Source: a virus
Reading direction: 5' to 3' (one strand)
DNA length: 36,930 bases
IMG/VR virus record: IMGVR_UViG_3300038701_002935
Location: 1 to 36,930 of that record
Shown here: piece by piece, positions 1 to 36,930 of the stretch
Position numbering within the stretch: position 1 is the first letter of the stretch
How the letters are laid out: each line of letters opens with the position of its first letter
Notes under the pieces: generated by a model
Told to the model about the DNA's origin: nothing
Database searches by the model: none
What the model saw: only the letters and a program-made list of their open reading frames with translations
Translations under genes and position numbers: made by a program

Positions 1-131
1 GGACATGCCAAAGGAGTTGGTCTTCGGCGGGGTCAAGGTCAAGGTCAAGGTCAAGGTCATGGTCATGGTCATGGTCTAGGAGTTTAGTTTGAATGCTGCA
101 ATGCTTAGATTGTCGAATGATAATGCAAGGG
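1..131. repeat. Terminal redundancy, left copy
   Basis: Positions 4-129 are identical to 36803-36928. Bases 1-2 also match, base 3 differs, and the last two bases differ. An overlap of this kind is expected from an assembler closing a circle, or from a short direct terminal repeat. Because it lies inside a hexamer array, a collapsed or expanded repeat cannot be excluded. After removing one copy the genome would be about 36,799 bp. Confidence 0.85.
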
Positions 132-256
132 CATGGTCAGGGTCATGGGCAAAGTCATGGGCAAAGTCAAGGTCAAGTGTAGGGTCATGGCCATGCTCAT
201 CATCATGGTCATGGGCAAGTGCAAGGTCAGGGTCAAGGGCAAGGAGTTGGATGTGA
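89..256 (+). CDS. Array protein B, Ser/Arg/Trp-rich (hypothetical)
   Basis: The reading frame is 55 codons from a TTG that overlaps the stop of module A as TTGA. The leader is LNAAMLRLSND, the body has Ser/Arg/Trp/Ala low complexity, and the end is RSWM. There is no in-frame stop, whereas the Gly-Gln frame through the same DNA has an internal TAG. An ATG five codons in is an alternative start. Function unknown. Confidence 0.4.
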   Translation: MNAAMLRLSNDNARAWSGSWAKSWAKSRSSVGSWPCSSSWSWASARSGSRARSWM

Positions 257-432
257 ATGCTGTTATGCTTAGATTGTTTAACGAAAATGTAGCGCCGAGA
301 TTAGGCTCATGGGCTTGGTCAAAGTCATACTTATGCTCATACTCAAGATCATACTCAGGCCTATGGTCAGAGTCGAGGTTAAGGTCAATGTCATGGTCAA
401 GGGCAGGGTTAAGGTCAAGGAGTTGGGTTTGA
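253..432 (+). CDS. Array protein C, Ser/Arg/Trp-rich (hypothetical)
   Basis: The frame is 59 codons starting at GTG, which overlaps the stop of module B as GTGA. The leader is VNAVMLRLFNE and the end is RSWV. The body has more Tyr and Leu than its siblings. The alternative Gly-Gln frame is broken by two TAG and two TAA codons, so this frame is better preserved. Function unknown; the product would be basic. Confidence 0.4.
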   Translation: MNAVMLRLFNENVAPRLGSWAWSKSYLCSYSRSYSGLWSESRLRSMSWSRAGLRSRSWV

Positions 433-644
433 ATTGCGTAATTCTTAGAGTAGCGAATGATAGTGCAAGTTCATTTCCAGGAGCAAAAGCAAGATTATGG
501 GCAAAGTCAAGGTCAAGTGTAGGGTCATGGCCAAGGTCATGGTTATGCTCAAGGTCATGGTTAGGGTCAAGGGCAGGGTTAAGGGTATGCTCAAGGTCAA
601 GGTCAAGGTCAAGGTTATGGTCATGTTCAAGGAGTTGGGTTTGA
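429..644 (+). CDS. Array protein D, Ser/Arg/Trp-rich (hypothetical)
   Basis: This is the longest module at 71 codons, starting at TTG in a TTGA overlap with module C. The leader is LNCVILRVAND, so compared with A-C it shows A to C, M to I, L to V and S to A changes. These are conservative replacements and one of them needs two base changes within a codon. It ends RSWV. The Gly-Gln frame has two TAG and one TAA. Function unknown. Confidence 0.4.
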   Translation: MNCVILRVANDSASSFPGAKARLWAKSRSSVGSWPRSWLCSRSWLGSRAGLRVCSRSRSRSRLWSCSRSWV

Positions 645-817
645 ATTGCGTAATTCTTAGAGTAGCGAATGAGAAGTCAGGTTCAAGGTCAAGGGCGAGG
701 TCATGCTCAAGGTCAAGCTCAAGGTCAAGGGCGTGGGCAAGGATATGGTCAATGTCATGGTCAAGGGCAAAGTCAAGGCCAAGCTCATGCTTATGGTCAA
801 AGGCAACATCAATATAG
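641..817 (+). CDS. Array protein E, Ser/Arg/Trp-rich (hypothetical, divergent end)
   Basis: The frame is 58 codons from TTG in a TTGA overlap with module D. The leader is LNCVILRVANE. The C-terminus differs from the other modules (ATSI) because the tandem CAACATCAATATAG duplication introduces a stop before the usual RSWV end. In this last module the Gly-Gln frame is also fully open (669-866, 65 codons), so the coding frame here is less certain than in B-D. Confidence 0.35.
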   Translation: MNCVILRVANEKSGSRSRARSCSRSSSRSRAWARIWSMSWSRAKSRPSSCLWSKATSI

Positions 818-885
818 CAACATCAATATAGAAGAGTTGGTTGTGAATAAAAAAATGGGAATGTAATAAAATTATTGGAGGAAAT

Positions 886-5473: not shown

Positions 5474-6283
5474 ATGATGCACTATAAAGATGCGCCGCAA
5501 TGCTTCATCATAGGAGATATAGGGAGCAATTGGCATAACTTGAACGATTGTTTAGATTCAATTGAAGCGTTAGCCGATGCGGGCGCTCATTTTGCGAAGT
5601 TTCAATTTTTCGATTACAAAAAACTGTATGGTTATAGCGACGGCGGCAAAATTTTCGGCGAATTGCAAAGAGAATGGATACCGAAGCTTGCTTCGCATTG
5701 CGATACTCACAAGATAAGCTTTTTGTGTAGCGTTTTTGATCCACTAGATGTCCCACTGCTCGATAGATACTGTTCTTGGCATAAGATAGCAAGCGCCGAA
5801 GCTAACTACAAAGATCTTATAAAGGCGGTTGCCGTCACTCAAAAACCTACTCTGGTATCCACAGGATGCGCGACAGAGGACGACATTAAGCAAGCTCATA
5901 GGATACTCGGCAAGCAGTTTGTACCAATGTCCTGTACTATGATGTATCCTGCAAAGCGTCATCCAATTAACAATCTTCTGTATTTGCGGAAAAAATATCA
6001 CGGACATTTGGTTGCGTTTAGTGATCATTCGCTTGATATGGAATTATCGGCATGGATCGCGCACAGTATGAATTGTGTAGCATATGAAAAGCACTTTTGT
6101 TTAGAGCGAGTTGTTGGCACTCCAGACGAGCAGCATAGCTTTAATGAGCGACAGTTTGAAGATCTTGTGGAGAAATTTGCAATGGTCGAAGGTCACAGAG
6201 ATGTTAAATGGGAATTTAACGATAATCCGCACAAACGCCGACAGTTTGAGAGAGGTTTTTTCCGAAAAAAACCTTTTTGTTGA
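5474..6283 (+). CDS. Nonulosonic acid synthase-like (NeuB/SpsE family), barrel only
   Basis: The NeuB family condenses phosphoenolpyruvate with a 6-carbon amino sugar to make sialic, pseudaminic or legionaminic acid. This 269-residue protein has the family landmarks in order: IGDIGSN (13-19), AKFQ (41-44), KIASAEA (104-110), a YPA turn (158-160), FSDHSLD (182-188), YEKHF (204-208) and GTPDEQHSF (215-223). The usual C-terminal antifreeze-like SAF domain of about 70 residues is absent and the protein ends soon after the barrel. In cellular NeuB that domain helps cover the active site of the partner subunit, so this version must work without it, use another protein, or be impaired. It lies between the terminase genes, far from the sugar cluster at 25641-29840. 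Confidence 0.8.
   Translation: MMHYKDAPQCFIIGDIGSNWHNLNDCLDSIEALADAGAHFAKFQFFDYKKLYGYSDGGKIFGELQREWIPKLASHCDTHKISFLCSVFDPLDVPLLDRYCSWHKIASAEANYKDLIKAVAVTQKPTLVSTGCATEDDIKQAHRILGKQFVPMSCTMMYPAKRHPINNLLYLRKKYHGHLVAFSDHSLDMELSAWIAHSMNCVAYEKHFCLERVVGTPDEQHSFNERQFEDLVEKFAMVEGHRDVKWEFNDNPHKRRQFERGFFRKKPFC
6253..6278 (+). terminator. Terminator-like hairpin inside the 3' end of the neuB-like gene
   Basis: AGGTTTTTT (6253-6261) can pair with AAAAAACCT (6266-6274) over a CCGA loop, followed by TTTT. The stem is 9 bp but mostly A-U. It lies within the last codons of the synthase gene, just before terL, and may reduce readthrough into terL. Confidence 0.35.
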
Positions 6284-17989: not shown

Positions 17990-19104
17990 TGGCAAATAAT
18001 GCGATTACAAGAGCGATATTAAAGCGTAGACCACAAGCAGCGGCTCTTGCTACTCCACAAGCTCCTGATCCAATTAGTGATCAGGACAAACAGGTAGAAG
18101 ACAGGGTTACAGGCATACTATCTCCGTATGAACAGCAACAAAAAAGTGCGTTGAATCAGCGCATAAGTCAGTCAAGGGAAGAATTGTATGAACAAGAATT
18201 GCGAAGAGGTCAAAGAGAAGGTGATATTTTAAAGCGCCGTTTTGCGGCATTGGGTGGCCAAGCTGGAGAAGAGACTGAACAAAGAGCTTTTAAACTAGCA
18301 GGGCGAGAAGCTGGTCGAAGGTTAGATATCGGGGAAAGAGATATCGAGCAACAAAAACTAGCACAACAACAAGCTCTCGATGAATTGATGGCAGAGCGTA
18401 GGCTCGGAGTTGGAGAAAGATTAAGAGGTCAGCAGTTTGCGACTGGAGAGAGAATTGAAGGTCAGCAGTTTGCGACTGGCGAGAGAGTTAAAGGTCAAGA
18501 ATTTGCGACAGGTGAGAGAGTTAAAGGCCAAGAATTTATGGCTGAGCAAAACGAAATAGCAAGAAATGCTGCTTCCGAGTTAGCAAGATTAGATAGAGAG
18601 ATGAAAGCAGAAATTGCCAAAGCAGACAGGGCGAGTGCCTCTAAAATAGCTCAGCTGAATAGGGATATGCAAAAGACAGAAGGTATACTTAATCGTGCGC
18701 AAGCAGCTAGTGAAGCGCAAAAGACGAGAGACTTAGAGTCTAAACTTGCTGATATGGATCGTGAATTAAAAAATCGGCAGATTGCTATAGCTCAAAAAGA
18801 GCTTGACCTGAATACGAAAATATCTCTTGAAAATATACGAACTCGTGACGGTTATGTTTCTGATGATGTTTTGCAAAGACTTAAAGACGCTGGTTTAGAT
18901 ATTAATTGGTTTGTATCCGGGGAAAAAGGACAAGCGCCAGCGCCAGCGCCAGCGCCAGCGCCAGCGCAAAATATATCCAATATTAGTCCGCTCGAAAAGC
19001 AAATTCAGGACATTAATAAAAACCCATTAAGCCCTGATTATATTAAGACATTAAAGCCTTTTAGGAGGCCGTCAAATGTTCCACCTGGTGTTACAATATT
19101 TTAG
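17989..19104 (+). CDS. Coiled-coil virion protein with 11-residue repeats
   Basis: The product has 371 residues, strongly helical and rich in Gln, Arg and Glu. Four 11-residue repeats of GER-x-x-GQ-[QE]-F-A-T type lie at about residues 142-185. Three-stranded or four-stranded hendecad coiled coils have this period. A Pro-Ala run of about ten residues follows near 316-326. It probably belongs to the internal or ejection proteins. It overlaps the previous gene by TAATG and is related in design to the next gene. Confidence 0.6.
   Translation: MANNAITRAILKRRPQAAALATPQAPDPISDQDKQVEDRVTGILSPYEQQQKSALNQRISQSREELYEQELRRGQREGDILKRRFAALGGQAGEETEQRAFKLAGREAGRRLDIGERDIEQQKLAQQQALDELMAERRLGVGERLRGQQFATGERIEGQQFATGERVKGQEFATGERVKGQEFMAEQNEIARNAASELARLDREMKAEIAKADRASASKIAQLNRDMQKTEGILNRAQAASEAQKTRDLESKLADMDRELKNRQIAIAQKELDLNTKISLENIRTRDGYVSDDVLQRLKDAGLDINWFVSGEKGQAPAPAPAPAPAQNISNISPLEKQIQDINKNPLSPDYIKTLKPFRRPSNVPPGVTIF
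18412..18543 (+). repeat. Four 33-bp coding repeats (hendecads)
   Basis: These 33-bp units encode the GER-type hendecads of the 17989 gene. Units are near-identical at the DNA level, with GTCAGCAGTTTGCGACTGG-like segments repeated, so the array is recent or homogenised. Confidence 0.75.
18934..18966 (+). repeat. GCGCCA hexamer run
   Basis: This is a short perfect run of GCGCCA units encoding alternating Ala-Pro near residues 316-326 of the coiled-coil protein. It is prone to slippage in steps of two residues and would form a stiff linker. Confidence 0.8.
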
Positions 19105-19110
19105 GAGTTA

Positions 19111-20037
19111 ATGATGGCGAGTGCAATAGAAAGACGTTTCGACTTAGCCAGGGCGGCACTTTCGGCAAAAGCCGAGGAAGCTTCATCAACACAAGAAGAA
19201 GCACAAAGAGCAAAGGCGGCTTCACTTGGATCGTTACAGTCAGGCGCGTCAATTAAAGAAGCGCGCGCCGGTGAACGTGCTTTATCCCGAAAAGAATTGA
19301 TTGGCCAAAGCGATATAACAGCAGCTCAAACGAAAGAAGAACAAGCGTTATTGTCCGCAGCATTACAGCGAAAGCTCTCAGCTGGTGAGAGTGCGGCAGG
19401 TCGACAATATGCGGCCGGTGAGAGTGCGGCAGGTCGACAATATGCGGCAGGTGAGAGTGCGGCAGGTCGACAATATGCGGCAGGTGAGAGTGCGGCAGGT
19501 CGACAATATACGGCCGGTGAGAGTGCGAAAAAACGTGAGTTTGTATCAGGAGAAGAGGGTAAAAAACGCGATTATATTACTTCAGAGGCGCTTGCTAGAC
19601 GTACTCAAGCCGAAAGCGAATCGACTAAAGGAAGAGATTTTGCTGTTTCAGAAGCGAAAAGCGGCAGGGAATTTGCGGTAGCTGAATCCGAAAAAGCTAG
19701 AAAAGAAACGATGAGACAAGCTGAGCTTAATCAAGCTCTGGCCGAAAAAGGCGTTATCATTTCTGAGAAAGAATATGCTCTAAATGAAGAGATATCATTA
19801 AGCAATTTAGCGCAATTAAGAGCTACAGCTGACAAAGATCGCCGCAGAAAAGATAGGTTGGATATAGGATTGCCGGAGGGTAAGTATGTACCGATAGAAG
19901 ATCCGAAAGATGTTCCTAAAGCACTTGAAGAGATTATAAAAGCTAGACTAGGTACGGCTAGTGATCCTACGAATTGGTTTAAAGGCGTTCCAAAAGTTAA
20001 AAGCGCTGGAACTTTTGATATCAGGAGTTGGAGATAA
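19111..20037 (+). CDS. Coiled-coil virion protein with 11-residue repeats (second copy)
   Basis: The 308-residue protein begins after AGGAGTTA at ATGATG. It is nearly all helix. Residues 91-145 contain five 11-residue units, AGESAAGRQYA with the last diverged to AGESAKKREFV. More degenerate units with the same period continue to about 200 (SEEAKSGREFAV-like). The plan matches the preceding gene, so the pair probably arose by duplication and forms a heteromeric bundle inside the virion or tail. Confidence 0.6.
   Translation: MMASAIERRFDLARAALSAKAEEASSTQEEAQRAKAASLGSLQSGASIKEARAGERALSRKELIGQSDITAAQTKEEQALLSAALQRKLSAGESAAGRQYAAGESAAGRQYAAGESAAGRQYAAGESAAGRQYTAGESAKKREFVSGEEGKKRDYITSEALARRTQAESESTKGRDFAVSEAKSGREFAVAESEKARKETMRQAELNQALAEKGVIISEKEYALNEEISLSNLAQLRATADKDRRRKDRLDIGLPEGKYVPIEDPKDVPKALEEIIKARLGTASDPTNWFKGVPKVKSAGTFDIRSWR
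19381..19545 (+). repeat. Five 33-bp tandem repeats
   Basis: Units start at 19381, 19414, 19447, 19480 and 19513. The first four differ at only a few positions (GCGGCC versus GCGGCA, and one ACGGCC). The DNA identity predicts copy-number change by recombination. Confidence 0.85.
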
Positions 20038-25640: not shown

Positions 25641-26504
25641 ATGAAAGTATTGATTACTGGCGGCACTGGTACGCTCGGTCAAGAGCTTACGCGCCAATTG
25701 CAGCGCAATAACCATTCGGTATACATATTAAGCAGGGATGAGAATAAGCAAAAGCAAATGGCTTTGGACTTCACTCGGTTAAAATTTATCGTCGCTGATA
25801 TTACTAATCGCAGGGATTTAGACGAAGTTTCACGCATAAAAGAATATGACTTTGATCATGTATTCCATTGTGCGGCGATGAAACATATTGAAGTTTGTGA
25901 AAAGTGGGTAAATAAATGTGTTGAAACGAACTTTCATGGGACAGTTAACGTCTATCAGTATTTCGGTTGGAAGGCACGAAATTTCACGTTTTTCACAACT
26001 GATAAAGCTGTCGCTCCGATAAATGCATATGGACATGCTAAGGCTCTCAGCGAGCATTATTTAGCAGACAAAAAGAACGTTAACATGTTTCGCTGGGGGA
26101 ATATCATCGGCTCAACGGGAAGCTTTATACCTTATCTAACGGAGTGCGCTTTGCGTGGAGAGAGGGTTAATATCACTAATCCTAATATGACAAGATTCTG
26201 GGTTTATATCGATGATGCGGCAAAATTTGTTATGAAAAACTGGCAACGACCGTTTATCGGCGCGATATACCCGGAAATGAAAGCTTGCAAGTTAATCGAT
26301 GTCGTCAGAGCGATTGAGATGTTAACCAAAAAGACGGTTCCTAAATTTACGATTGATAGGGACGGTGAAAAAACTCATGAGTGCATGTATGCCGATTGCA
26401 ATGGTCCTAAGATTTACTCTCATGAGAATGTTATAAATGCACAACAAATGAAGGAATATTTGGAAAAATGGTACAGAAAATATTTGAAAAACAGAAAGAA
26501 TTAA
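25641..26504 (+). CDS. UDP-sugar 4,6-dehydratase-like SDR (PseB/CapD family)
   Basis: The 287-residue protein has the extended SDR signs: TGGTGTLG (6-13) for NAD(P), SRDENKQ (31-37), HCAAMKHIEVCE (76-87), the Asp121-Lys122 pair and Tyr130-x3-Lys134, then RWGNIIGS and TRFWV. This set is that of PseB/FlmA dehydratases, which convert UDP-GlcNAc to a 4-keto-6-deoxy sugar in the first step of pseudaminic acid synthesis. It opens the sugar operon and overlaps the next gene by 37 nt. Start is ATG after GGAGATGAATAA. Substrate cannot be proved from sequence. Confidence 0.85.
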   Translation: MKVLITGGTGTLGQELTRQLQRNNHSVYILSRDENKQKQMALDFTRLKFIVADITNRRDLDEVSRIKEYDFDHVFHCAAMKHIEVCEKWVNKCVETNFHGTVNVYQYFGWKARNFTFFTTDKAVAPINAYGHAKALSEHYLADKKNVNMFRWGNIIGSTGSFIPYLTECALRGERVNITNPNMTRFWVYIDDAAKFVMKNWQRPFIGAIYPEMKACKLIDVVRAIEMLTKKTVPKFTIDRDGEKTHECMYADCNGPKIYSHENVINAQQMKEYLEKWYRKYLKNRKN

Positions 26505-27142
26505 TTTGTGTTGTTGGCGGCAAAGGTAATATGGGCCGGCGTTATTGTTGTATCTTAGATTTTCTAGGTGTCCCTTATTATGTTGTTGATTTAGACACAG
26601 ATACTAGTGTACATCTAAACACGACGGGATTTATATTAGCTACTCCGACGAATACGCATAGCGCGCTTATTATGCAGTATGCGAAGGAGTGGCAACTTCC
26701 TATTCTTTGCGAAAAGCCTATATGCAAAGATCCAAAAGAACTTTCCGAAATTCTAAAGATTAAAACTCCATTGAGAATGATCAATCAATATGCTTATTAC
26801 TTTTTGCACAGCAAAAACGCATTGAAGCGCATTGAAATGTGCGCTCCCGAGTATATGAAGGGCGCGACATATTACAATTATTATAACAGTGGTTCAGACG
26901 GTAAATACTGGGATCACATTAATATCATCGGACTCAATAGCGATGACGATATAAACATTCGATATGATAGTCCAGTATGGGATTGTTGGATTAACGGAAA
27001 GTTTATCGAAAAGCAGCGTATGGATGAAGCTTATATTTGGGATATCGAAGATTGGATCGAGAAGAAAAACGACACAAAAAAATATATTAAGTTTGCTCAC
27101 GAAAAAGTATGGGCATTATTAAAAGATGAGGTAGCGCAATGA
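26468..27142 (+). CDS. Gfo/Idh/MocA-type oxidoreductase, short form
   Basis: The product has 224 residues. A Rossmann fold is indicated by CVVGGKGNMGRRY (14-26), then ATPTNTHSAL and LCEKPI, the Glu-Lys-Pro motif typical of sugar-type oxidoreductases. Ordinary members are 320-400 residues, so the C-terminal sheet domain is reduced. It overlaps the upstream dehydratase gene and shares a 4-nt ATGA overlap with the next. It likely oxidises or reduces a sugar intermediate. It is less like any single known pathway enzyme than its neighbours. Confidence 0.65.
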   Translation: MVQKIFEKQKELICVVGGKGNMGRRYCCILDFLGVPYYVVDLDTDTSVHLNTTGFILATPTNTHSALIMQYAKEWQLPILCEKPICKDPKELSEILKIKTPLRMINQYAYYFLHSKNALKRIEMCAPEYMKGATYYNYYNSGSDGKYWDHINIIGLNSDDDINIRYDSPVWDCWINGKFIEKQRMDEAYIWDIEDWIEKKNDTKKYIKFAHEKVWALLKDEVAQ

Positions 27143-27888
27143 GTAAAAAAATAATAGCAATTTGCATACAGATTAGAGACGGTAATAGTAGGCTACCGGG
27201 AAAGGGCAGCATGCTATTGCAGGGAGAGCCTGTATATAAGCATTTAATGCGGAATATAGGCCGTTGCCAGCGCTTTATAAATAAGCACAGCGAGAAAAAA
27301 GGACTTCTAGCAAAGGTTTTTTTCCTGGTACCGTTTGATGAATATGATTACTGGGAAGTAGTGTGCGACAAAGAATTAAAGCAATATGACATAACAGTAT
27401 TACCCGGAGAAGTTGACGACAATAACGATGTTATGGCGCGTTTCGAGACAATGTTTAAATTTCATAAGCCTGATTATATAGTGCGGTTAACCGGGGATTG
27501 TCCTTTTTTGCCAAGCGCTTTGATTAACAAAGCTGTAAATTGTGCTGTTGTTCATAATTTGGATTATGTGTCAAATGTTGACGAACGTTTTAGGACAATG
27601 CCAGACGGTTTTGACGTCGAAGTCATGTCCGACGAGGCTTTTCTTTGGCTTTCCAACAACATCGATGGAGGTTATGAAACCGACCGAGAGCATGTTACGA
27701 CATACCTACGTCGTAAGGCTCCAGACTGGCTACGACAAGCTATTATAAGCGGTTCTTTTGATCTTAGTGCGAGTAAGTGGAGTTTGGACACAAAAGCGGA
27801 TTTTGAAGAGATGACAAAATTGTATGGTCGAAAAGTTATAAAAGATACAGAAGCAAAAAAAGCGGGGCTAGGAATTTATGAGTATTAA
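27139..27888 (+). CDS. SpsF/NeuA-like sugar-acid cytidylyltransferase
   Basis: The protein has 249 residues of the PF02348 type. The nucleotide-binding start contains SRLPGKG (17-23), followed by LTGDCPF (117-123) and DYVSNVDERF (142-151), then PDGFDVEVMS and REHVT, all characteristic of SpsF-like proteins. Members activate nonulosonic or KDO-type acids as CMP derivatives. The usual first motif near residues 9-16 is unusual (CIQIRDGN rather than IPARGGS-like), so the nucleotide loop is altered. It forms an ATGA overlap with the gene before it. Confidence 0.75.
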   Translation: MSKKIIAICIQIRDGNSRLPGKGSMLLQGEPVYKHLMRNIGRCQRFINKHSEKKGLLAKVFFLVPFDEYDYWEVVCDKELKQYDITVLPGEVDDNNDVMARFETMFKFHKPDYIVRLTGDCPFLPSALINKAVNCAVVHNLDYVSNVDERFRTMPDGFDVEVMSDEAFLWLSNNIDGGYETDREHVTTYLRRKAPDWLRQAIISGSFDLSASKWSLDTKADFEEMTKLYGRKVIKDTEAKKAGLGIYEY

Positions 27889-29062
27889 AGCTAGGGCCGA
27901 TAAGTGCATAGGTCAAGGCGCTCTTACGAATTCAAAACATCCAGATCGGTTTTCAGAGTTTGTTGCGTCTCATGTCACTCACGGCAAAGGTGCATATCTT
28001 TATGATACTGATGGAAATGAGTGGCTTGATTTCGTGAGTGGATTAGGCACGAATCATTTCGGTTATGGCAATGAATTTATCGTTAGGGAGATGTTAAAGC
28101 ATGCATACGAAGGAGATTGTCACAGTTTGCCTACAGTTTACGAAGTTGAAGCGGCCGAAGCCGTGAAGGCTACTTGGCCATGGACCGAGAAAGTTAAGTG
28201 GGTTAATGATGGCTCCAGCGCTTGCGCCGCAGCGGTTGAAATGGCTCGTGTCTCTACTGGTAAAAGTCGGGTACTATATCAAGGCTACCATGGGTGGCAT
28301 CCAGAATTTATCAGCCAAGTAGCGTACAAGCCGAATGGCAATTGCTATAACTATCGTCGTTTGGATGATCTTGAGCAAATTGACGAAAAGATTGCAGCTG
28401 TTATAGTCGAGCCAGTCGAGCTTGATTGCTCTCGACATAGAATCGACTTTTTAAAAAAACTTCGAGATAAATGCGATTATTATAATGTTGTCTTAATATT
28501 CGATGAGGTGATCACTGGCGTTCGCTATAAAAATTTTGGGGTGTCGAATAGTTACGGCATTAGACCAGATTTAATTCTACTCGGAAAAGCGCTCGGCAAT
28601 GGCGCAAAGATAGCATGCGTCGCCGGAAGGAAAGATATATTAGACGGCGAGTATTTTGTCAGCGGGACGTATCACGGTCACATACATTCATTAATTCAAG
28701 TCATCGAAACTTTGAAACTTGCTAAAAATAAATCTCGGTATGATATAGAAGCTCTCAATTACGACAGCAAAGACTTTTTTATGAAAATCAATATTCTATT
28801 CGGGCCATTTTTCAGAATAGAATTTTGGGGCTGTCGCGGAGCTTTTAAAGGCGACAGCCATTATATTGCTCTATTTCAGCAGGAGATGGCGAAGGCGAAA
28901 ATATTGTTTTGTCCGAGTATATTTTGCAATTTTTATAACATAAAAGAAACTGATAGAGTTTTAGATTTTGCTAAAAATATCAGTAAGCGTATGTTAAATA
29001 ATGATATCAGTTTAATCGGGAAAGCGCCGACTCCGGCACTTGCATCAACACAAAGGAGTTAA
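27878..29062 (+). CDS. Class III (glutamate-1-semialdehyde type) aminotransferase
   Basis: The 394-residue protein has the fold landmarks of PLP class III enzymes: GSSACAAAVEMAR (112-124), YHGWH (137-141), IFDEVITG (207-214) with Asp209, and LLGKALGNG with Lys237 as the PLP Schiff-base lysine. These enzymes are common partners of SpsF-like transferases in nonulosonate clusters and would place an amino group on the sugar. The canonical PseC aminotransferase is of the DegT family and is absent, so this enzyme may substitute for it or act at another carbon. The Ala/Pro/Thr-rich C-terminal tail (about 380-394) is unusual. Overlaps the previous gene by 11 nt. Confidence 0.8.
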   Translation: MSIKARADKCIGQGALTNSKHPDRFSEFVASHVTHGKGAYLYDTDGNEWLDFVSGLGTNHFGYGNEFIVREMLKHAYEGDCHSLPTVYEVEAAEAVKATWPWTEKVKWVNDGSSACAAAVEMARVSTGKSRVLYQGYHGWHPEFISQVAYKPNGNCYNYRRLDDLEQIDEKIAAVIVEPVELDCSRHRIDFLKKLRDKCDYYNVVLIFDEVITGVRYKNFGVSNSYGIRPDLILLGKALGNGAKIACVAGRKDILDGEYFVSGTYHGHIHSLIQVIETLKLAKNKSRYDIEALNYDSKDFFMKINILFGPFFRIEFWGCRGAFKGDSHYIALFQQEMAKAKILFCPSIFCNFYNIKETDRVLDFAKNISKRMLNNDISLIGKAPTPALASTQRS

Positions 29063-33560: not shown

Positions 33561-34622
33561 ATGCAGAAATCAAACATGGCAGCCAAAAAAGGCCTTACAA
33601 GGGCCAAAAAGCCCATTTGCGTTAAGTTGAGTAAATATTACGAAACTTTGGAGATATTAGCAATGGATGAATTTAGCAGGACTTTTACTCCGCCAAAGAA
33701 AGGGTTTTTTATGTGTAGTAATTTGATATCTGAATTACCAATTAGCAATGCATCTGTGCGAGTATTGCTTTTTATGCGAGGGCAAAAATCTAATTTTAAA
33801 ATCAGCGTATACAATATGATCGATCGTATATATATGTCAAAGCCAACATTGTATCGAGCGTTAGAGGAACTAGTGGAAATTGGTATTTTACGCATCGAAA
33901 AAGAAAACGGTCACTGTCCAATTTATTATCATGCTCCGGACGACATCTACGAAAAAATCATTGAAGAATTTAGGTCAAATGAGCGCACCGAAATTATGTA
34001 TAGCGGTAAAGAATCTTTACCGGTCAAAAAACTTTACCGGTCAAAAAACTTTACCGGGGGGGGTAAAGAAATTTTACCCCCTATCGATACGGGGGTAAAA
34101 AAACTTTACCGGGGGGGGTCAAAAAATTTTACCCCAAACAATACTAAGGACAATAATAAGAAAACAGACAATAAGAATAAAACAAAAATAAAGAATGCTC
34201 CGCATTCAAATATCTCTCTTCCTGGCAAAGAAAAGAAACCGAAAAAATATAGCTTCGAGGCCCATCATTTAGACTTAGCGCAAAAATGGAGAGATCATTA
34301 TATGATCATTTGTCCATGGCTCGGAGATCCTGAAAATAAGCTTGAGCAATGGGCTAACGAATTGCGATTGATATCTCAGCAGTACAATTTGAGCGAAGAA
34401 GGCGTAAGCAAGATATTTCGATTCGTGCAAAGTGATGAATTTTGGCGTGATAAGGCAGATTCACCGATGACTCTCCGGAAAAAGAATAGTGCTGGAGTGC
34501 CTAAAATCGTAAATATTATTAAGAGCATACCAGAAATGCGTCGAGAAATTGCACAGAGATCGATGGCGGTGAAAACAGAAAACCAAAAACAGAATGAAAA
34601 ATCAGCGGAGGGAATGTTTTAA
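33561..34622 (+). CDS. Replication initiator (phage O-like) with winged helix-turn-helix
   Basis: The 353-residue protein has an N-terminal winged helix-turn-helix (about 60-125: SVYNMIDRIYMSKPTLYRAL, EELVEIGILRIEKENG). A low-complexity middle follows, encoded by the iteron region, then an Asn/Lys linker and a helical C-terminal domain that would contact the replisome. This is the architecture of lambdoid O proteins and other initiators. The first ATG has no ribosome site; ATG 33663 has GGAG upstream and would lose 34 residues. It overlaps the next gene by TAATG. Confidence 0.75.
   Translation: MQKSNMAAKKGLTRAKKPICVKLSKYYETLEILAMDEFSRTFTPPKKGFFMCSNLISELPISNASVRVLLFMRGQKSNFKISVYNMIDRIYMSKPTLYRALEELVEIGILRIEKENGHCPIYYHAPDDIYEKIIEEFRSNERTEIMYSGKESLPVKKLYRSKNFTGGGKEILPPIDTGVKKLYRGGSKNFTPNNTKDNNKKTDNKNKTKIKNAPHSNISLPGKEKKPKKYSFEAHHLDLAQKWRDHYMIICPWLGDPENKLEQWANELRLISQQYNLSEEGVSKIFRFVQSDEFWRDKADSPMTLRKKNSAGVPKIVNIIKSIPEMRREIAQRSMAVKTENQKQNEKSAEGMF
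34005..34200. other. Probable replication origin (iterons plus A-rich region)
   Basis: CTTTACCGG occurs at 34015, 34032, 34049 (17-bp spacing) and 34104, with inverted GGTAAAG copies at 34005 and 34062. GGGGTAAA pairs with TTTTACCCC at 34061-34080 and again around 34092-34135. Two runs of eight G lie at 34056-34063 and 34111-34118. A strand-asymmetric A-rich stretch follows (34135-34195), suitable for unwinding. Iterons within the initiator gene followed by A/T-rich DNA is the classic lambda origin plan. Confidence 0.7.
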
Positions 34623-36454: not shown

Positions 36455-36712
36455 ATGTATCACGAATTTCAAAAGTTATTTGTTAAAACAGCAACAATGT
36501 ACTATACCGGCGAATTTGTTCGAGAAACCGACGATTGTATTGTAGTAAAAAAAGCGGCGTGGATCGCATTGACTGGAAGCTTTGCACAAAATATCAAAAG
36601 TTGTGACTTTCAAGAAGTTGAGCCATTTCCAGATGACGTAGAAGTGCGTATCAGGAAAGGCGGCATTATCTGTGATTTTGATATTGAGAAATTGCCAAGG
36701 GATCGATGTTGA
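36455..36712 (+). CDS. Small conserved-looking phage protein upstream of the array
   Basis: The 85-residue product begins MYHEFQKLFVKTATMYYTGE, with a good ribosome site (TTAAGGAGATGTA). It is beta-rich with a segment DCIVVKKAAWIALTGSFAQN and resembles small proteins frequently found near phage early genes. Its stop overlaps the start of array protein A (TTGATGA), so the array may be translated from its ribosome flow. Confidence 0.6.
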   Translation: MYHEFQKLFVKTATMYYTGEFVRETDDCIVVKKAAWIALTGSFAQNIKSCDFQEVEPFPDDVEVRIRKGGIICDFDIEKLPRDRC

Positions 36713-36891
36713 TGAATGCTGTAATGCTTAGATTGTCTAATGAGCCTCCAAGGGCAAGGGCATGGTCATTGTCAAGGACATGGGTAGGGTCTGGGTCATG
36801 GCCATGCCAAAGGAGTTGGTCTTCGGCGGGGTCAAGGTCAAGGTCAAGGTCAAGGTCATGGTCATGGTCATGGTCTAGGAGTTTAGTTTGA
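36712..36891 (+). CDS. Array protein A, Ser/Arg/Trp-rich (hypothetical)
   Basis: The frame is open for 59 codons. The leader reads MNAVMLRLSNE, followed by irregular Ser-Arg/Ser-Trp dipeptides ending RSLV. The start forms a TGATG overlap with the stop of the preceding gene; a TTG one codon earlier would form a TTGA overlap. Its leader has the pattern shared by all five modules, LN[AC][VA][MI]LR[LV][SAF]N[DE]. No known family is recognised and the product would be strongly basic. No Shine-Dalgarno is seen, so expression would depend on coupling to the upstream gene. It may instead be non-coding repeat DNA. Confidence 0.4.
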   Translation: MNAVMLRLSNEPPRARAWSLSRTWVGSGSWPCQRSWSSAGSRSRSRSRSWSWSWSRSLV

Positions 36892-36930
36892 ATGCTGCAA
36901 TGCTTAGATTGTCGAATGATAATGCAAGCC
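36800..36930. repeat. Terminal redundancy, right copy
   Basis: This is the right-hand copy of positions 1-131, with 126 identical bases in its core. It lets the window be read as a circle, so the array starting at 36712 continues directly into position 132. Confidence 0.85.

Follow-up and report, generated by a model that had tools for sequence, protein, structure and literature searches.

Among described systems, those closest to the locus analysed here are the cassettes carrying DUF6948 (PF22253, a domain of unknown function in Pfam), the Sm/LSm and Hfq/SmAP proteins, the eukaryotic SR and FUS/RGG-type low-complexity proteins, and the type III toxin-antitoxin systems (ToxIN). Eukaryotic Sm proteins have RG-rich tails, an arrangement loosely reminiscent of a Sm-like protein accompanied by an SR/SG polymer. 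Low-complexity regions of prokaryotes and phages have been surveyed, and aromatic residues and Arg were reported to be heavily under-represented in them (PMC6821194); hence a phage repeat family built on Arg and Trp is unusual. The window analysed here (the whole stretch of 36,930 bp, a virus record) carries such a repeat. We consider, at roughly even odds (about 0.5), that its array represents a small phage gene present in five tandem, translationally coupled copies and encoding a short leader followed by Ser alternating with Arg, Trp or Gly (S-[R/W/G]), and that it belongs to a cassette of an Sm/LSm-like protein and one or more dipeptide-repeat polypeptides, working as an inferred nucleic-acid-binding pair. 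The reading frame, the coupling signals, the family relationship, the linkage to the partner, the hypervariable order of the repeats and the tandem duplication, both here and in other phages, are shown by the sequences themselves. A literature search on DUF6948 or peptide strings returned no paper (most subscription papers, as well as preprints, lay outside it), and, as there is no family entry either, the cassette and its SR family are, provisionally, apparently undescribed.

Layout and reading frame of the array

The array starts at 36712, crosses the joined contig ends and stops at 817, and it is preceded by the gene of its presumed partner:

36455..36712, plus strand: putative Sm/LSm-like partner gene (85 aa), TGATG-coupled to SR cistron 0; same family as genes beside SR ORFs elsewhere
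36712..36891, plus strand: SR cistron 0, ATG start, 59 codons and a stop, protein MNAVMLRLSNEPPRARAWSLSRTWV...; its last part recurs as 4-92 at the opposite contig end
89..256, plus strand: SR cistron 1, TTG start, 55 codons, AGGAG at 78-82
253..432, plus strand: SR cistron 2, GTG start, 59 codons, AAGGAG at 241-246
429..644, plus strand: SR cistron 3, TTG start, 71 codons, AAGGAG at 417-422
641..817, plus strand: SR cistron 4, TTG start, 58 codons, AAGGAG at 629-634; its TAG end adjoins a 14-bp duplication (803-831)
4..129, no strand: contig-closing identity, 126 bp identical to 36803-36928

A preliminary description, made from the letters alone, had proposed a tandem series of five open frames, 55-71 codons long, linked by 4-nt NTGA overlaps and coupled to the upstream gene. 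All five SR (Ser-Arg) frames proved to be open over the coordinates listed, with 55-71 codons each, and the stop/start overlaps between them were recovered (TTGA at 89, GTGA at 253, TTGA at 429 and TTGA at 641), each of these four start codons standing 6 nt behind AGGAG or AAGGAG. The upstream coupling also held, but in another form than the 4-nt overlap: the TGA of the preceding gene (36710-36712) shares a single base with the ATG at 36712 (TGATG). The fifth SR ORF (641-817) ends in TAG without onward coupling. The identical junctions go back to a single duplicated feature and do not constitute independent evidence. Moreover, the count of five holds only if the contig ends, which have 126 bp in common (4-129 and 36803-36928, with mismatching bases just beyond), are joined, and thus the true number could differ. 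The module lengths of 176, 164, 176 and 212 are all 8 modulo 12, so that the frame survives the gain or loss of hexamers. In the window copies Ser does alternate with Arg, Trp or Gly, though in a degenerate form (Ser at 27-37%, compared with 38-53% in most relatives), and TTG or GTG serves as the start in four of the five; relative to the other members of the family these copies have diverged further and are less pure, and still all five are open.

The hexamer has a consensus of approximately TCANGG, in which positions 3 and 6 are the most variable; these correspond to third codon positions in the Gly-Gln frame and to first codon positions in the SR frame. To ask how many stops the divergence would be expected to create, we kept the sites that differ from TCANGG and randomised the substituted base. 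No SR-frame stop was observed against 10.7-13.8 expected (P<=2e-4 in every setting), nor was there any when the test was confined to 51 unique hexamers (6.0-8.5 expected, P<=5e-5) or to three modules alone (5.8-8.4 expected). The Gly-Gln frame contains nine in-frame stops in modules 0-3, and the Val-Lys frame contains one. A Fisher test comparing G-to-A changes in TGG with those in other codons was not significant.

It was the variation at hexamer positions 3 and 6 that led us initially to favour the Gly-Gln frame, a choice dropped after the stop test and the comparison with relatives. According to that reading, the Gly-Gln/His frame would be the gene, as in the open ORF at 669-866, and the openness of the SR frame would be a by-product of the repeat. 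The positions that vary most are indeed its third codon positions; however, this frame has nine in-frame stops in modules 0-3, is without a start in most relatives and would read Gly-Arg in the phage MW202573, so we give this reading hardly any credence. On the sequence evidence, the coding frame of the array is the SR frame, because the residues S-[R/W/G] persist through codon changes in a way that only this frame explains. The preliminary description had inferred protein-level selection on the SR frame, and the absence of stops despite divergence, a phage family in the same frame and residues kept with changed codons all bear this out. Its own argument, drawn from conservative replacements in the leader, is thin when taken alone, since the body varies mostly at SR first codon positions, although the conclusion is supported otherwise. 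Fast turnover of units may account for the body varying at first rather than third SR codon positions.

SR-type relatives and turnover of the repeat

A pattern scan of viral contigs for five consecutive TCAWGG units yielded 47 loci, among which 26 viral contigs other than the window (22 without near-duplicates) have an SR-frame ORF with a start codon, a ribosome site and a leader. In these relatives, the ORF body reads (S[R/W/G])n after a short leader, and the ORFs come after a coupled gene of 85-125 aa. Many leaders are of the MNxAxLRxGFD type, others being MIRGKKHRY or MITSHLKKLNR; the window leader, MNAVMLRLSN, belongs to the MNxAxLR type and can be compared with MNTAVLRTGFD, MNQAMLRTGYD and MNAAIIRAGLD. 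The scan by TCAWGG biases the codons of the loci it finds, so that routes independent of the repeat weigh more. A tblastn search with the 85-aa protein of the window led to one phage, MW202573, whose next CDS after the partner is MNAAIIRAGLDASWSWSWSWSRSRSW..., written with the codons TCG and CGG/TGG/GGG. The same search with a type B partner led to one other phage, MW202825, in which the partner is followed by two SR ORFs joined by ATGA, with the codons TCG/TCT and CGG. Both phages were reached via the partner only, without use of the repeat, and compared with the TCA-type arrays their codons differ (TCA to TCG, AGG to CGG), whereas the residues S-[R/W/G] are kept.

Multiple SR copies are likewise present in other loci (five in L105, of which two overlap by ATGA; four in L126; two in each of L132 and L141), and thus the tandem array of the window is not unique. 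The preliminary description would have been refuted by relatives with stops or frameshifts in this frame; the opposite was met in the ATGA-linked tandem SR copies of MW202825 and L105. Its view that the products are unlike any known phage family has to be narrowed: they are not unique, as a large, unnamed family exists.

Other searches were negative. Leader DNA patterns had no match in viral and genome contigs, relatives of the terminase, methyltransferase, replication gene and portal gave no phage covering the array, and Pfam, PHROG, Rfam and tRNA scans left the array without a match. BLAST with the SR protein likewise returned nothing, as is expected from low-complexity masking.

Some observations concern individual arrays. 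In TCA-type arrays (viral loci L101-L143) the sixth base of the hexamer can be A, T or G but is almost never C, while MW202573, with its TCG-type array, has C, T or G there and never A; seemingly, each array uses one Arg codon. The MW202825 record (L264) is flagged as contaminated and shows Illumina-adapter-like sequence (AGATCGGAAGAGCG) after about 3590, directly past the second SR ORF, so the array there is probably cut short. In L122 (7583-8199), the gene after a distant partner homologue (E 1e-9) encodes a protein whose C terminus carries a fused SR-type tail.

It is conceivable that the repeat works as RNA, i.e., that GGUCAN arrays serve as binding sites for the Sm-like partner or as a sponge for another factor while translation is incidental, in the extreme case as an analogue of a type III toxin-antitoxin system. 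The almost invariant TCA and GG of TCA-type arrays, the restriction of their position 6 to A/T/G (hardly ever C) and the RNA-binding-type fold of the partner would suit such a role. Nevertheless, we find it quite unlikely, given that the residues are kept in MW202573 and MW202825 although the codons are different, that conservation extends to the start, the ribosome site and the avoidance of stops, and that the array is hexameric and lies downstream, unlike an upstream repeat RNA.

Closely related loci differ in their repeats. The partner genes of L121 and L134 are identical at 284 of 285 bases and their repeats differ in order and length, which is likewise the case for L101 and L127 (partner identical at 312 of 345). 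No autocorrelation at lags 1-6 was seen for the variable residue in 24 pure runs (R 188, G 127, W 124). The composition of the repeat is maintained and its order is not; a random and differing order fits a function exerted by composition. If units turn over more quickly than synonymous sites drift, so we infer, the TCA codon would stay nearly uniform. A random order and the rapid replacement of units, together with module lengths equal modulo 12, could also be taken to indicate a selfish or neutral hexamer expansion without function. We hold this to be very improbable, since divergence is high and yet no SR stops arise, the start region is conserved and the partner is linked in 14/14 loci. Furthermore, the hexamer has 118 matches in bacterial genomes, and those screened are mono-unit TCATGG repeats with neither leader nor partner, unlike the phage loci.

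The partner gene and its linkage to dipeptide repeats

The window partner belongs to type A, and partner types A and B align with each other (hhalign 96%, E 7e-9). Its AF2 model (pLDDT 92, pTM 0.82) was compared with the PDB by Foldseek, and nearly all of the best 50 structures were Sm/LSm/SmAP proteins, with TM of about 0.5-0.65 and a best E of 8.6e-3 (about 1e-2); the viral Foldseek matches include DUF6948 and a protein annotated as Sm-like. Neither a convincing match in a PDB sequence search nor an Sm sequence match or signature in Pfam was found for it. Thus the partner models as an Sm/LSm-like fold on structural grounds only, with weak E-values, and binding of nucleic acid or RNA is a guess from that fold, without binding data.

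Type A partners are related to DUF6948 by profile comparison (hhalign 97%, E 1e-10), although the window partner itself has no PF22253 match at the Pfam cut-off of 27 bits. DUF6948 loci were sought with a DUF6948-like sequence whose PF22253 match was confirmed. In all eight phage loci examined (Manatee Spring, gut, Chlorobiaceae, Iodobacter, Vibrio, Pectobacterium and Dickeya), an ORF with a G-[D/S/Y]-type dipeptide repeat lies immediately downstream (8/8). In the class of a Lachnospiraceae genome, DUF6948 was present in 3/391 genomes, with such an ORF directly 3' in 3/3, and a search with the partner profile in 369 genomes of one class gave a single locus, L276, followed by MIAGKKHTRSGSGSGSGSGS. 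Altogether, a dipeptide-repeat ORF stands next to the partner in 14/14 loci examined, counting partner-led searches only. The frame of the G-[D/S/Y] repeat is fixed by its fusion to a longer C-terminal part in gut phages, L273 and L275. In the gut phages and clostridial genomes represented by L266, L268, L273 and L275, the C-terminal part after the G-[D/S/Y]-type repeats contains FAHGET(L/V).

The cassette of the window sits after replication and DNA-methyltransferase genes, and in many relatives it lies among exonuclease, primase and other DNA-metabolism genes. Alternating Arg/Trp-rich peptides resemble known antimicrobial peptides, and a small lipoprotein or lysozyme gene is found nearby in the window, L111, L126 and MW202825 (the downstream lipoprotein of the window had no relative among the fetched loci). 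The SR proteins might accordingly be cationic Arg/Trp peptides acting on membranes (in lysis, superinfection block or as a toxin), with the Sm-like protein as a regulator or antidote. This remains possible but fits poorly and is, in our judgement, unlikely: the G-[D/S/Y] counterparts beside DUF6948 are not cationic, and DNA-metabolism genes surround many of the loci.

Elsewhere in the window, a NeuB-type synthase, a Polysacc_synt_2 epimerase/dehydratase, a cytidylyltransferase and a class-III aminotransferase (5474-6283, 25641-26504, 27139-27888 and 27878-29062) look like a phage-carried set for the synthesis of a nonulosonic-acid (sialic-acid-like) sugar. A 17-bp repeat occurs three times at 34004-34057 inside an O-like replication initiator gene and may mark an iteron-bearing origin, and in-frame 33-bp tandem repeats lie within virion-region genes (19384-19527 and 18411-18527).

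Possible mechanism and comparison with known systems

If the SR copies and the Sm-like gene do form a nucleic-acid-binding pair, the repeat protein would be disordered and would act by its composition, with Arg and Trp as stickers and Ser and Gly as spacers. Together with the Sm-like partner it may bind RNA or DNA, perhaps forming a condensate or serving as an RNA chaperone in the early phase of infection, and additional SR copies might raise dose or valency; all of this is inferred, there being no expression or binding data. A more far-reaching version, which we put forward only tentatively and regard as doubtful, is a phage-own RNP-like system in which a Sm-fold RNA-binding protein and hypervariable S-[R/W/G] or G-[D/S/Y] sticker-and-spacer polymers form a nucleic-acid condensate early in infection, their order being rewritten by fast recombination and their residue alphabet kept.

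Whatever its function, an array of repeats that might have been written off as junk DNA is a gene family, and the two-gene cassette, found in many different phages, has been missed by Pfam and PHROGs and is often unannotated. It couples a putative Sm-like fold with a simple repeat polymer that keeps its frame and a small residue alphabet although the order is scrambled. The cassette offers a small natural system in which to ask whether a disordered protein can function through composition alone.

Among known systems, type III toxin-antitoxin loci (ToxIN) similarly place a small protein gene beside short tandem repeats, but the array of the window is downstream, hexameric and coding, and its partner models as Sm-like rather than as a ToxN fold. 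Eukaryotic SR and FUS/RGG-type low-complexity proteins share with the SR family Ser-Arg dipeptides, aromatic and Arg stickers and Gly/Ser spacers; unlike eukaryotic SR proteins, the phage proteins of 40-90 aa alternate by two residues (strictly in relatives, degenerately in the window), include Trp and have no RRM (Pfam gave no RRM match in the SR ORFs or the partner). With Sm/LSm and Hfq/SmAP proteins the window partner may have in common a beta-barrel-type fold, so far only predicted, whereas it lacks a sequence match to them and the repeat is a separate protein. The DUF6948 cassettes resemble the window in having a related small partner gene with a hypervariable-looking dipeptide-repeat ORF immediately behind it, and differ from it in that the repeat is G-[D/S/Y] instead of the basic S-[R/W/G] and the partner matches PF22253, which that of the window does not.
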